The translations under genes and the position numbers were made by a program. Shown here one piece after another: positions 24,185 through 61,640 of a DNA stretch of 64,000 nt. How positions within the stretch are numbered: position 1 is the first letter of the stretch; each line of letters opens with the position of its first letter. Origin of the DNA: Methanococcoides vulcani (GTDB taxonomy: Archaea; Halobacteriota; Methanosarcinia; Methanosarcinales; Methanosarcinaceae). The notes under the pieces were generated by a model. That model did no database searches. It saw only the letters and a program-made list of their open reading frames with translations, and was not told the DNA's origin. The DNA lies in the NCBI RefSeq assembly GCF_900111645.1, contig NZ_FOHQ01000008.1:1-64000 (forward strand), read 5' to 3'.

Positions 24185-24269
24185 GCGGGGGTCGCCCAGC
24201 TAGGTCAAAGGCGCCAGACTTAAGATCTGGTATCGAAGGATTTCGAGGGTTCGAATCCCTCCCCCCGCA
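24185..24269 (+). tRNA. tRNA-Leu (anticodon UAA)
   Basis: Complete cloverleaf. Acceptor GCGGGGG pairs with CCCCCGC. The anticodon stem CCAGA/TCTGG encloses the loop CTTAAGA with TAA at 24221-24223. There is a long class II variable arm, and the T arm is GAGGG-TTCGAAT-CCCTC. The discriminator A fits Leu; CCA is not encoded and there is no intron. An AT-rich TTTAATTAT at about 24137 may be the TATA box. It marks the left edge of the accessory region 24.3-49.8 kb. Confidence 0.95.
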
Positions 24270-24372
24270 CTTGTTTTTCGGGATATATACAAAGAAAAAT
24301 ATGGCAACGGGGTTTTGCGATTGATTCGCACAACCACTAGTTCCAAAATATCACCCTTAAAATTATTTTGTC

Positions 24373-24456
24373 CCATCCTTCTAGCCTCTCCCTCACATTA
24401 GCATTTAATGTAAATGGCTTGTCACTCTTGGCATTCTGCTTCATGTAATGCAAAGT
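24373..24456 (-). pseudogene. Cas1-like C-terminal fragment, copy A
   Basis: About 28 codons in one frame match the other dispersed copies: TLHYMKQNAKSDKPFTLN then a short RERLEGW end. Synonymous differences from other copies show it descends from a translated gene. It begins only about 100 bases downstream of tRNA-Leu and has no start codon; the upstream part is lost. The rest of 24270-24550 is AT-rich and shows nothing else. Confidence 0.55.
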
Positions 24457-24550
24457 GTGACAAGCAGCTCTTGTATTTTGTAAAAACTTGAGGTTCGAAT
24501 TATTATAGAATATTATATTATATTATATTATTATCGAGATACTCAAATAA

Positions 24551-24558
24551 TTATATAT
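24551..24558 (+). promoter_or_regulatory. Probable TATA box of the cohesin/PKD lipoprotein gene
   Basis: TTATATAT lies 49 bases before the putative start at 24600 and 29-36 bases before the AAGGAGGGTG ribosome binding site (24585-24594). This would give a short leader. Based on sequence and spacing only. Confidence 0.4.
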
Positions 24559-24599
24559 GGTTATAAACCTACAACCTCTCAGATAAGGAGGGTGTATCC

Positions 24600-25928
24600 A
24601 TCAAACTCATTACAATAATCGCTATATTTTTACTTCTGCTTGGTCTTGGTTGTTCCAATTCAACTGCAGCAGACGTAGCACTTAAATCATCAACTCAAAT
24701 CGTCACAACCGGTGAAAGCTTCACTGTAGATGTTTTTATAACACCAGATACTGCAATTGCAGGATTACAGTTCGATCTCGAATTTGACAGCTCAAAAATA
24801 CAGATAGATAGCGTATCTGAAGGAAGACTCTTAAGCCAAAATGGAATTTCAACATTTTTCAACGACGGAAACATAGACAACAATGCCGGAATACTTTCAG
24901 GTGTTTTCGGATCGGCAATTGGTCCTTCAAGCGTCTTAGAGCCTGAGTCATTTGCAAGCATCACAATGAGTGTAAAAGAGCAGGCTACAAGCACATCAAC
25001 AATATTTCTGAAAAACGTGATCATAAGTGACCCATCAGGAAATCCCATAGATGTCCAGATCACAGATCTAACTCTGACTATTAATGAAGTCCCTGTAGCA
25101 GTTATCAATAGCCCCTCTGAGGTTAATGAAGGTGATCTGGTACCCTTTAGTGCCTCAGGTTCCTATGATTCCGATGGTGTTGAACTGACATCATATGAAT
25201 GGGACTTTAGTGACGGAACGACAGCTTCCGGCTCGGAAGTCACACATGTTTATGCAACCAACGGCATCTATATAGTAACATTGACGGTCACCGATAATGA
25301 GGGCACATCTACATCTGACACTCTTATAGTAACGGTAAACAATGTTGCACCAGTTGTGGATGCAGGAACAGACCAGACCGCTAACATGGGTGAAGAAGTT
25401 GTTTTTTCAGGAAGCTTTGATGATCCTGGATCCTTCGATACTCACATAATTTTATGGGACTTCGGAGATGGTGAAACTGTAGAAGGTACATTAACACCTG
25501 CTCACACTTATGCTGGTAGTGGCGTTTACAACTTGATTTTGACTATAACCGATAATGACGGTGCATCTACATCAGATACCGCAACGGTAACAGTATCTGA
25601 CACCAATGCCATTTCGATTGACAGCATCAGCATGTCAATGGTGGAAAATTACAAATTCTGGAAGTGGACCCGGATACACGCCACAGCAGAGGTAAAGATT
25701 GTTGATGCCACTGGCAGTCCGATTAATGGTGCAACGGTCTCCGGCCAATGGAGCGGTGCGACCAGCGACAGTGATTCTGGAGTAACTGGCAGTAATGGAA
25801 AGGTCACTTTAGACTCCAAGAATGTGTGGGGATCTGAACCAAGAACATTCACCTTTACAGTGAACGATGTTTCCCATACAATCCAATGGGACGGTGAGAC
25901 AAAATCCGGCACAATAACGTATCAATGA
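24600..25928 (+). CDS. Lipoprotein with cohesin-like and two PKD domains, apparent ATC start
   Basis: 442 residues if translation begins at ATC 24600. The frame gives a textbook lipoprotein signal (KLITIIAIFLLLLGLGC), then a cohesin-type beta domain (about 25-150, TGESFTVDVFITPD...AGLQFDLEFD). Two PKD domains follow (about 165-245 and 255-335, with YEWDFSDGT and ILWDFGDGE), then a C-terminal Ig-like domain. A perfect AAGGAGG is centred eight bases before ATC, exactly where ATG should be. The first in-frame ATG is at 24966 and would lose the signal and cohesin domain. Either AUC is used or an ATG has mutated. It is probably surface-located; cohesin domains bind dockerins, none of which is in the window. 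Confidence 0.75.
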   Translation: MKLITIIAIFLLLLGLGCSNSTAADVALKSSTQIVTTGESFTVDVFITPDTAIAGLQFDLEFDSSKIQIDSVSEGRLLSQNGISTFFNDGNIDNNAGILSGVFGSAIGPSSVLEPESFASITMSVKEQATSTSTIFLKNVIISDPSGNPIDVQITDLTLTINEVPVAVINSPSEVNEGDLVPFSASGSYDSDGVELTSYEWDFSDGTTASGSEVTHVYATNGIYIVTLTVTDNEGTSTSDTLIVTVNNVAPVVDAGTDQTANMGEEVVFSGSFDDPGSFDTHIILWDFGDGETVEGTLTPAHTYAGSGVYNLILTITDNDGASTSDTATVTVSDTNAISIDSISMSMVENYKFWKWTRIHATAEVKIVDATGSPINGATVSGQWSGATSDSDSGVTGSNGKVTLDSKNVWGSEPRTFTFTVNDVSHTIQWDGETKSGTITYQ

Positions 25929-25944
25929 GAGCATTTGTACTCAT

Positions 25945-25973
25945 GAGGAGAAAGGAGTAATCTCCTCTTTTTT
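25945..25973 (+). terminator. Hairpin plus T-run terminator
   Basis: GAGGAGA, a nine-base loop, TCTCCTC, then six T. It lies 17 bases after the stop of the cohesin/PKD gene. This is the clearest intrinsic terminator in the window. Confidence 0.75.
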
Positions 25974-26166
25974 ATTAATTTAAAGTACTCATTGCTCCCA
26001 TCACGATTTGATTTGAAAGTCAAATCTTCTTCCTTTGTTTTTTCTTTTCAAATAAGCCAAAGCACTTCTATGCATGATTTCAATTTCTGTTTTTGTGCAC
26101 AGTATAACCATACACAACTTCAAATACCGCGTTTTGTGCTTCCGACAAAATCACTCCTAATTTACT

Positions 26167-26300
26167 CCACGTCTCCAACCTCTCCCCCACATGCGAATTG
26201 AGAGTAAACGGCTCATCACTCCTGGCATTCTGCTCCATGTAATGGAGAGTATCCTTAGAGGATCCCATTTTCTTCCTATAGTGCTCCACACTAAGAAAGT
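26167..26300 (-). pseudogene. Cas1-like C-terminal fragment, copy C
   Basis: About 44 codons homologous to the family: RKKMGSSKDTLHYMEQNA followed by a DEPFTLNSHV segment and ERLETW. It differs from copy A at many synonymous sites. A short open frame runs through it but begins with unrelated residues and has no ribosome binding site, so I call it a remnant. The rest of 25974-26439 is AT-rich without other features. Confidence 0.55.
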
Positions 26301-26439
26301 ATAACATCTCACTACCCGATGGAACGTGGAGGAGGATAATAAACGCCATCTAAAACTGTTCAAACCAGAACACATCAAAAAGAAAAAGGCCAAATATTAT
26401 GCAAAACAATCTTTCAAATTATAAAGGGGGACGAAAATA

Positions 26440-60278: not shown

Positions 60279-61640
60279 TTAGTTCGTAAGTGCCTGTATA
60301 GGTGCAGGTATCCTTCCACCGCGCCCTATAAATTCCTCGGAACTGAATTCAGAGACGGCCATAACAGGTGCGCGTCCCAGAAGTCCACCGTACTCCACGT
60401 TGTCACCAACCTTTTTTCCTGGTGCAGGTATTAAACGCACAGCAGTTGTCTTCTTGTTGATCATGCCGATGGCCATCTCGTCTGCAATGATGGCAGAGAT
60501 CGTGGATGCCGTTGTATCACCGGGAATGGCTATCATATCCAGTCCTACAGAGCAAACACTTGTCATAGCTTCGAGCTTTTCAAGGCTCAACGCACCGATC
60601 TCAACTGCATGTATCATGCCAGCATCTTCACTTACCGGAATAAATGCACCGCTTAAGCCTCCGACATAGGAGGATGCCATTGATCCACCTTTTTTCACGG
60701 CGTCATTGAGAAGTGCAAGAGCTGCTGTGGTCCCATGGGTCCCGCAGTTCTGGAGTCCCATTGCTTCAAGGATAGCAGCTACACTGTCACCGATCTCAGG
60801 TGTTGGTGCCAGGGACAGGTCCACAACGCCGAACTCAACATTGAGGCGACGGGAAACTTCCCTTCCGACCATCTCTCCCATCCTTGTGATCTTAAAAGCT
60901 GTTTTCTTGATCGCTTCTGATATTTCCCCAAGGTCAGGGTCCTTAAGTTCCCTGATGGTGGAGTTCACGACTCCCGGACCGCTGACACCGACGTTGATCA
61001 CACAATCAGGTTCACCTATACCGTGGAATGCGCCAGCCATGAACGGATTATCTTCCGGTGCATTGGCAAAGACAACGAGTTTTGCACATCCTATTCCATC
61101 ATCATCCTTTGTTGCTTCAGCTGTCTTTTTGATGATCTTTCCCATCATTGCCACCGCGTCCATATTGATGCCTGCTTTTGTGGTAGCTACGTTGATGGAT
61201 GAACAGACCTTCTTTGTACTTGCAAGTGCCTGCGGAAGGGAATTGATAAGTTTTATGTCTCCGGGAGTTGCTCCTTTATGCACAAGAGCAGTGAAACCGC
61301 CAATAAAATCAATTCCCACATCTTCTGCTGCACGATCAAGTGTCTTTGCAATGGACACATAATCATCCGTATCACAGCTTTCGGCAACGATAGCGATCGG
61401 GGTTACAGCTATACGCTTATTGATAATGGGGATGCCATAGAGATTCTGTATCTCTTCTGTAGTCCTGACAAGATTCTTTGCATAACTGGTGATCTTCTCA
61501 TAGATCCTTTCATTGAGCACATCGATATCATTGTGACAGCAACCACGAAGGTTGATACCCATTGTAACGGTCCTGATATCGAGGTTCTCCGCTTTGATCA
61601 TCTGGATGGTTTCCAGTATCTCTTCTGGATGGACAAGCAT
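60279..61640 (-). CDS. UPF0210/DUF711 family protein (PFL-like fold)
   Basis: 453 residues, the family's normal length. Conserved stretches are [19 protein letters not shown] near 25-43, [13 protein letters not shown] near 120, and [20 protein letters not shown] near 310. It has a glycyl-radical-like barrel fold without a known reaction. AAGGAGGAT precedes ATG 61640, 15 bases after the ACT-domain gene stop; the pair is conserved in many prokaryotes. Confidence 0.92.

Follow-up and report, generated by a model that had tools for sequence, protein, structure and literature searches.

A conserved AUC or AUU codon as the probable translation start of a cohesin-domain gene in Methanococcoides

The gene studied here raises a basic question, namely where its translation begins. 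The window analysed is a stretch of 64,000 nucleotides (contig C14, positions 1-64000) from a 2.31-Mb, 15-contig genome (G000) of Methanococcoides, referred to below as genus g1. On its + strand, a reading frame stays open from 24567, directly after a TAA, to a stop codon at 25926-25928. Counted from an ATC at 24600-24602, the inferred start codon, it forms a 442-codon gene (24600-25928, + strand), in which no in-frame ATG, GTG or TTG occurs from the upstream stop to codon 122. The first in-frame ATG (24966-24968, + strand) is codon 123 and lies inside the cohesin domain, which confirms, for the frame 24567-25928, the claim of an earlier note on this DNA that no canonical start precedes 24966. 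The window contains 50 non-overlapping frames, read from stop to stop, that reach 150 codons or more. All except this gene have a canonical start by codon 80, the next latest first one falling at codon 31. This uniqueness argues that the late canonical start of the gene is more than chance.

A Shine-Dalgarno (SD) sequence, AAGGAGG (24585-24591, + strand), stands ahead of the ATC and is complementary to the 3′ end of the 16S rRNA of the same genome, GGATCACCTCCT. The earlier note recognized this motif but described it as centred eight bases upstream; its centre lies 12 nt upstream of ATC, and the gap between its last base and the codon is 8 nt. Farther upstream is a TATA-like promoter element, AATAATTATATATGG (24545-24560, + strand), from whose position a transcription start near 24580 can be inferred. 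From ATC on, the gene encodes IKLITIIAIFLLLLGLGCSNSTAAD..., with a signal peptide, a cohesin domain (PF00963, 46.9 bits against a Pfam cut-off of 24.1; 4e-12), two PKD domains (two PKD_4 stretches in Pfam) and a C-terminal region without confident assignment. Cohesin-domain surface proteins with variable partner domains have been described in ANME relatives (PMC9012536), and the window protein resembles them in its Pfam cohesin domain. The complete lipoprotein signal and cohesin domain proposed in the earlier note are thus borne out for the cohesin domain and in part for the lipoprotein signal, as 11 of the 12 copies of the gene retain the codon-18 cysteine (serine in G004) but the residues before it do not form a classic lipobox. 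An ordinary signal-peptidase site (STAA/D) is a possible alternative.

A profile of the N-terminal part of the gene, searched over 111 genomes of the family, yielded 12 copies in 10 genomes of two genera, g1 and g4 (at a guess, Methanolobus), with copies accepted at E <= 6.2e-64 and the next match at 2.5e-48. This permitted the check proposed in the earlier note, whether orthologues have ATG at codon 24600. In the alignment, the position holds ATC in nine copies (G000, G004, G009 on C67, G002 on C3, G003, G013, G083, G092 and G093) and ATT in three (G002 on C1, G008 and G009 on C18), while ATG, GTG and TTG are absent from all 12. The ATT copies form one clade in the tree (support 0.98), which indicates that the C/T change at the third position was a single event and that ATT is derived. 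The TATA-like element is kept in all 12 copies (alignment of leaders), and GAGG is kept in ten, with GTGGGG in its place in G092 and G093. Because the spacer between SD and codon 1 measures 7, 8 or 9 nt in the ten copies with GAGG while codon 1 stays, the upstream sequence is not read in frame.

These comparisons bear directly on the idea, raised in the earlier note, that a G-to-C change in ATG has weakened or silenced the gene, and on the related one that the ATC is private to this strain or an error of sequencing. Although ATC is one change from ATG, and a copy of the leader before another gene does have ATG, ATC or ATT occurs in 12 of 12 copies from 10 genomes, 11 of the copies with intact frames, and this explanation is therefore rejected. 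The other reading offered there, initiation at AUC, is supported by the presence of ATC or ATT at SD distance in every copy. ATC 24600 is thus probably the real start (probability about 0.82), with initiation at AUC or AUU proceeding through the SD and the methionine initiator tRNA, and with the codon kept as a weak start.

Canonical codons elsewhere in the frame offer little common ground among the copies. Upstream of the start position, seven of the 12 copies have none in frame; an in-frame ATG lies at -17, within the TATA element, in G009a, G002a and G003, at -6 in G092 and at -5 in the broken G083 copy. In G000, G008, G009b and G013, no canonical codon is found between the upstream stop and the end of codon 104. 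The first canonical codon downstream falls, depending on the copy, at codon 13, 34, 45, 105, 107 or 123, and an in-frame TTG at codon 13 is present in G004 and G002b. This variation weighs against use of an internal start at ATG 24966 with the upstream part left untranslated. The column of codon 123 does hold ATG in several copies, but a protein starting there would have neither the signal peptide nor the greater part of the cohesin domain, and no SD is seen ahead of this ATG in the sequence, so that an internal start is hardly credible. An out-of-frame canonical start followed by a frameshift was also considered and rejected: the candidates, GTG at -8 and ATG at -41 to -44, are absent from some copies, and for most of them a stop codon follows only a few codons later.

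A different non-canonical codon could also serve as the start, in which case ATC would be codon 3 or 4. An in-frame GTA, TTA or CTA precedes ATC by two or three codons in the copies, near the ATG start of a cohesin paralogue; the ATG-started paralogues read MSSIKK against GVSIKL here. However, this triplet sits 0-2 nt behind GGAGG, and the intervening codons before ATC are free to vary (S, P, L, N), whereas conservation starts at ATC AAA. An upstream start of this kind is accordingly unlikely.

Initiation at ATC presupposes that the 5′ end of the gene is translated at all. The gene might instead be a decaying or silent cassette, untranslated in normal growth, that owes its surviving frame to recent spread or recombination. 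Over codons 1-160, dN/dS lies between 0.24 and 1.34 in 66 pairs, four of them above 1, so that the protein is either loosely constrained or undergoing diversification; one of the 12 copies (G083) is broken, stopping after codon 123, and the G004 copy lies at a different genomic place. Against this, the frame is intact in the other 11 copies, and only one nonsense change is seen in codons 2-160 where about 16.5 would be expected without selection (P ~1e-6, a crude estimate that rests on a tree totalling 1.08 substitutions per site). The SD, the TATA element and codon 1 are all kept as well, and a silent cassette is therefore judged quite improbable. The C-terminal parts vary among the copies, which carry PKD domains, other tails or a short Trp-rich end.

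Between the window and G004 (C1, ~232789), the match is confined to the promoter and gene (24521-25999) over 70 kb. Because nothing else matches there, the promoter and gene have moved as a unit; for the same reason, synteny with G004 was unusable as a background for the start codon. The gene lies between two equally oriented copies (24400-24457 and 26204-26250) of a dispersed repeat of ~57 bp, which recurs at ~30 further places in the genome; the opposite strand of the repeat encodes a peptide such as TLHYMEQNARSDEPFTLN. The frame at 26080-26349, by the repeat, has no Pfam match. A tRNA-Leu(UAA) at 24185-24270 lies upstream of the gene, as it does in G002 (C1) and G008.

The promoter itself provides a control within the same genome. 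A 138-bp copy of the promoter and leader, 77% identical, lies at G000:C10:176675-176812 and retains the TATA-like element. The open reading frame behind it, unrelated to the window gene, has ATG exactly where the window gene has ATC in the alignment. Loci of cohesin relatives were compared as well (n = 26), and in the majority an ATG stands a few codons ahead of the aligned region; four (L094, L096, L102 and L038) were not judged, and one odd locus (L105, in G072) led to a second family.

Homologues of L105 were sought in genus g4, where 25 of 27 genomes gave a match. All seven close members (G072, G095, G094, G093, G091, G026 and G092; loci L175-L181; 71-100% identity) have ATT after AAGGTGATC; in an alignment made by eye, that place is occupied by ATG (G013) or GTG (G075, G087) in homologues farther removed. 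Upstream of the ATT, four of the seven have no canonical codon, and the remaining three have an in-frame GTG, two of them also a TTG, at -3/-5, overlapping or adjoining the SD. The G092 member has an ATG at codon 4.

A third family was found by scanning the retrieved loci for frames that lack a canonical start near their beginning (524 with redundancy, 32 distinct, mostly noise). One such gene, in G004, encodes the exosome subunit Csl4 (NCBIfam NF034126, 208.9 bits against a cut-off of 90, residues 124-301 of P0001). The genome of the window has the same conserved ATT at its own Csl4 start (G000:C5:138499-138523, - strand), and all 11 genomes of genus g1 read GAGGGATTCCT-ATT-AGA-ATA-AGA at this point. 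Of the order's 185 genomes, 93 were inspected at the 5′ region of Csl4 (53 through 55 loci, together with 40 hand-picked stretches), and the start could be read in 87 through an in-frame GGG-ATN marker, the start codon being the next-but-one codon, which the search did not require. The six left out were G011 (contig edge), G164, G021 and G109 (domain motif not found by the expression used), G103 (short frame) and G124 (Ns). Among the 87, the start position holds ATT in 85 and ATC in two, 7 nt behind a GAGG-type SD. In contrast, the triplet directly ahead of it is of 17 kinds, and the isoleucine codon two places after it is ATA in 44 genomes, ATC in 18 and ATT in 16. Since the neighbouring codons drift in this way, the ATT appears to be constrained as nucleotides, as would be expected of a start codon.

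Canonical codons near the Csl4 ATT are distributed unevenly. No upstream canonical codon at all is present in 47 of the 87 loci (counted by hand), and a TGA stands directly before the GGG in 42, of which 19 have no ATG at -1/-2. In 23 loci, from genus g7 (probably Methanosarcina) and G024, an ATG lies directly ahead of the ATT. One g7 genome, G122, has AAG in its place, which indicates that this ATG can be lost. Five Methanococcoides genomes and G013 have an AT-rich stretch directly before the SD (GAGGG); this could be a TATA box that puts the mRNA start downstream of the ATT, and the same five Methanococcoides genomes have an ATG 13 codons downstream of the ATT. The exact Csl4 pattern occurs in 41 of 392 genomes of the phylum, and among the matches listed all belong to the order of the window genome; a looser pattern finds matches in 164 of the order's 185 genomes, some of these matches being other than Csl4.

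How common such starts are is indicated by a scan of the window and a 400-kb sample of the genome, which covered 410 frames of 100 codons or more. Forty of these frames reach codon 26 without a canonical start, and in six of the 40 an SD-like motif precedes ATH. Two of the six, the window gene and Csl4, were checked across relatives, and both are conserved. Since so few frames in the scan combine an SD with ATH, conserved AUC/AUU starts would constitute a small class and not a general rule. The other four late-start frames with SD and ATH are L279:10277-10663 (-), L267:6904-7632, L268:13142-13768 and L279:8617-9144. An ATT at 60679 (+) was considered as a further case and set aside, as it looks by eye like an antisense frame.

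Starts of this type have well-described bacterial counterparts. In E. coli, infC is autoregulated through its product IF3, a factor that archaea are not known to use, and pcnB is, like Csl4, part of RNA 3′-end metabolism. These two are given as the only E. coli chromosomal genes with AUU starts in the part of the source available (PMC9410913), and they are comparable to the genes described here as chromosomal genes with such a start, although bacterial. Streptomyces sigR starts with GTC in 32 of 34 species and with GTT in two, behind a strong conserved ribosome-binding site, with experimental support and with the protein kept low (PMC5472188). It shares with the window gene a conserved non-canonical start and a strong ribosome-binding site but, on the available portion of that account, differs in its GUC codon, IF3 repression and coupling to an antisigma factor. 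In Staphylococcus, cvfC1 (AUU) and ccpN and infC (AUA) have conserved starts behind an extended SD, with ribosome profiling and lower yield (PMC13009471); the likeness lies in the conserved non-canonical start with SD, while those genes are bacterial and their starts experimentally proven.

For archaea, a review names AUG, GUG and UUG as start codons (PMC7531240), and in ribosome profiling of M. mazei, small ORFs missing from the annotation start with ATG, TTG, GTG and CTG (PMC11456600), both as far as the accessible text extends. The closest precedent found is ribosomal protein L12ae of Staphylothermus marinus, which lacks a valid start and for which alignment points to ATC (PMC2678158). It resembles the window gene as an archaeal ATC start recognized by alignment but, in the portion consulted, concerns one gene in one genome and gives no account of whether the ATC is conserved. 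Thus AUU/AUC-type starts are known in bacteria (infC, pcnB, sigR, cvfC1), and for archaea one inferred single-genome case was found. A literature search covering archaeal non-canonical starts, Methanococcoides and Methanosarcina, and Csl4, to which subscription papers were mostly inaccessible, brought up no description of AUC/AUU starts conserved among methanogens.

If the ATC is the start, initiation may be pictured as follows. The strong SD (AAGGAGG, 8-nt spacer) would place the 30S subunit on AUC, and the initiator Met-tRNA would read AUC or AUU with a third-position mismatch, so that the protein would still begin with methionine. Selection would keep the weak codon in Methanococcoides and its sister genus, and its simplest purpose would be to hold translation of the cohesin-PKD surface protein low and sensitive to aIF1, which proofreads the start codon. 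The factor aIF1 has been reported to destabilize complexes on non-AUG mRNA in vitro (PMC6237735). The window gene would then be one of a small set of genes in the order with conserved AUC/AUU starts, of which Csl4 is the most widespread. It is tentatively suggested, on sequence grounds, that AUU/AUC starts form a standing regulatory class in the order (order-wide for Csl4, and in the cohesin proteins) whose translation depends on aIF1 or initiator tRNA, as a counterpart of IF3 with infC and pcnB, with Csl4 possibly acting in an RNA-decay feedback loop; this broader proposal is more doubtful than not.

If this picture holds, archaea keep AUU/AUC starts by selection and not merely by accident, and such starts work with an aIF1/aIF2 machinery unlike the bacterial one in which they are understood. 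Genus g7, with its ATG beside the Csl4 ATT, and its relatives with ATT alone would offer a ready test system. Furthermore, gene callers restricted to ATG, GTG and TTG would truncate or drop these proteins; for Csl4, they would miss the N-terminal basic region, IRIRNRKKTTRR, an extension that falls outside the NCBIfam model.

Two other ways of accommodating such a start were tried and rejected. A hairpin sequestering the SD by pairing with TCC/CCT before the codon gives stems of only 3-4 bp in single folds, and its register shifts among copies. A second initiator tRNA with anticodon GAU was sought among the 48 places in the genome that match RF00005; the typed loci, which leave out two long (109-nt) matches, gave one Ile-GAU and three CAU tRNAs. 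Four contigs of the genome (C7, C8, C10 and C13) each begin with a tRNA-Cys within their first 130 bases, and the assembly seems to be broken at a repeated tRNA-Cys region.
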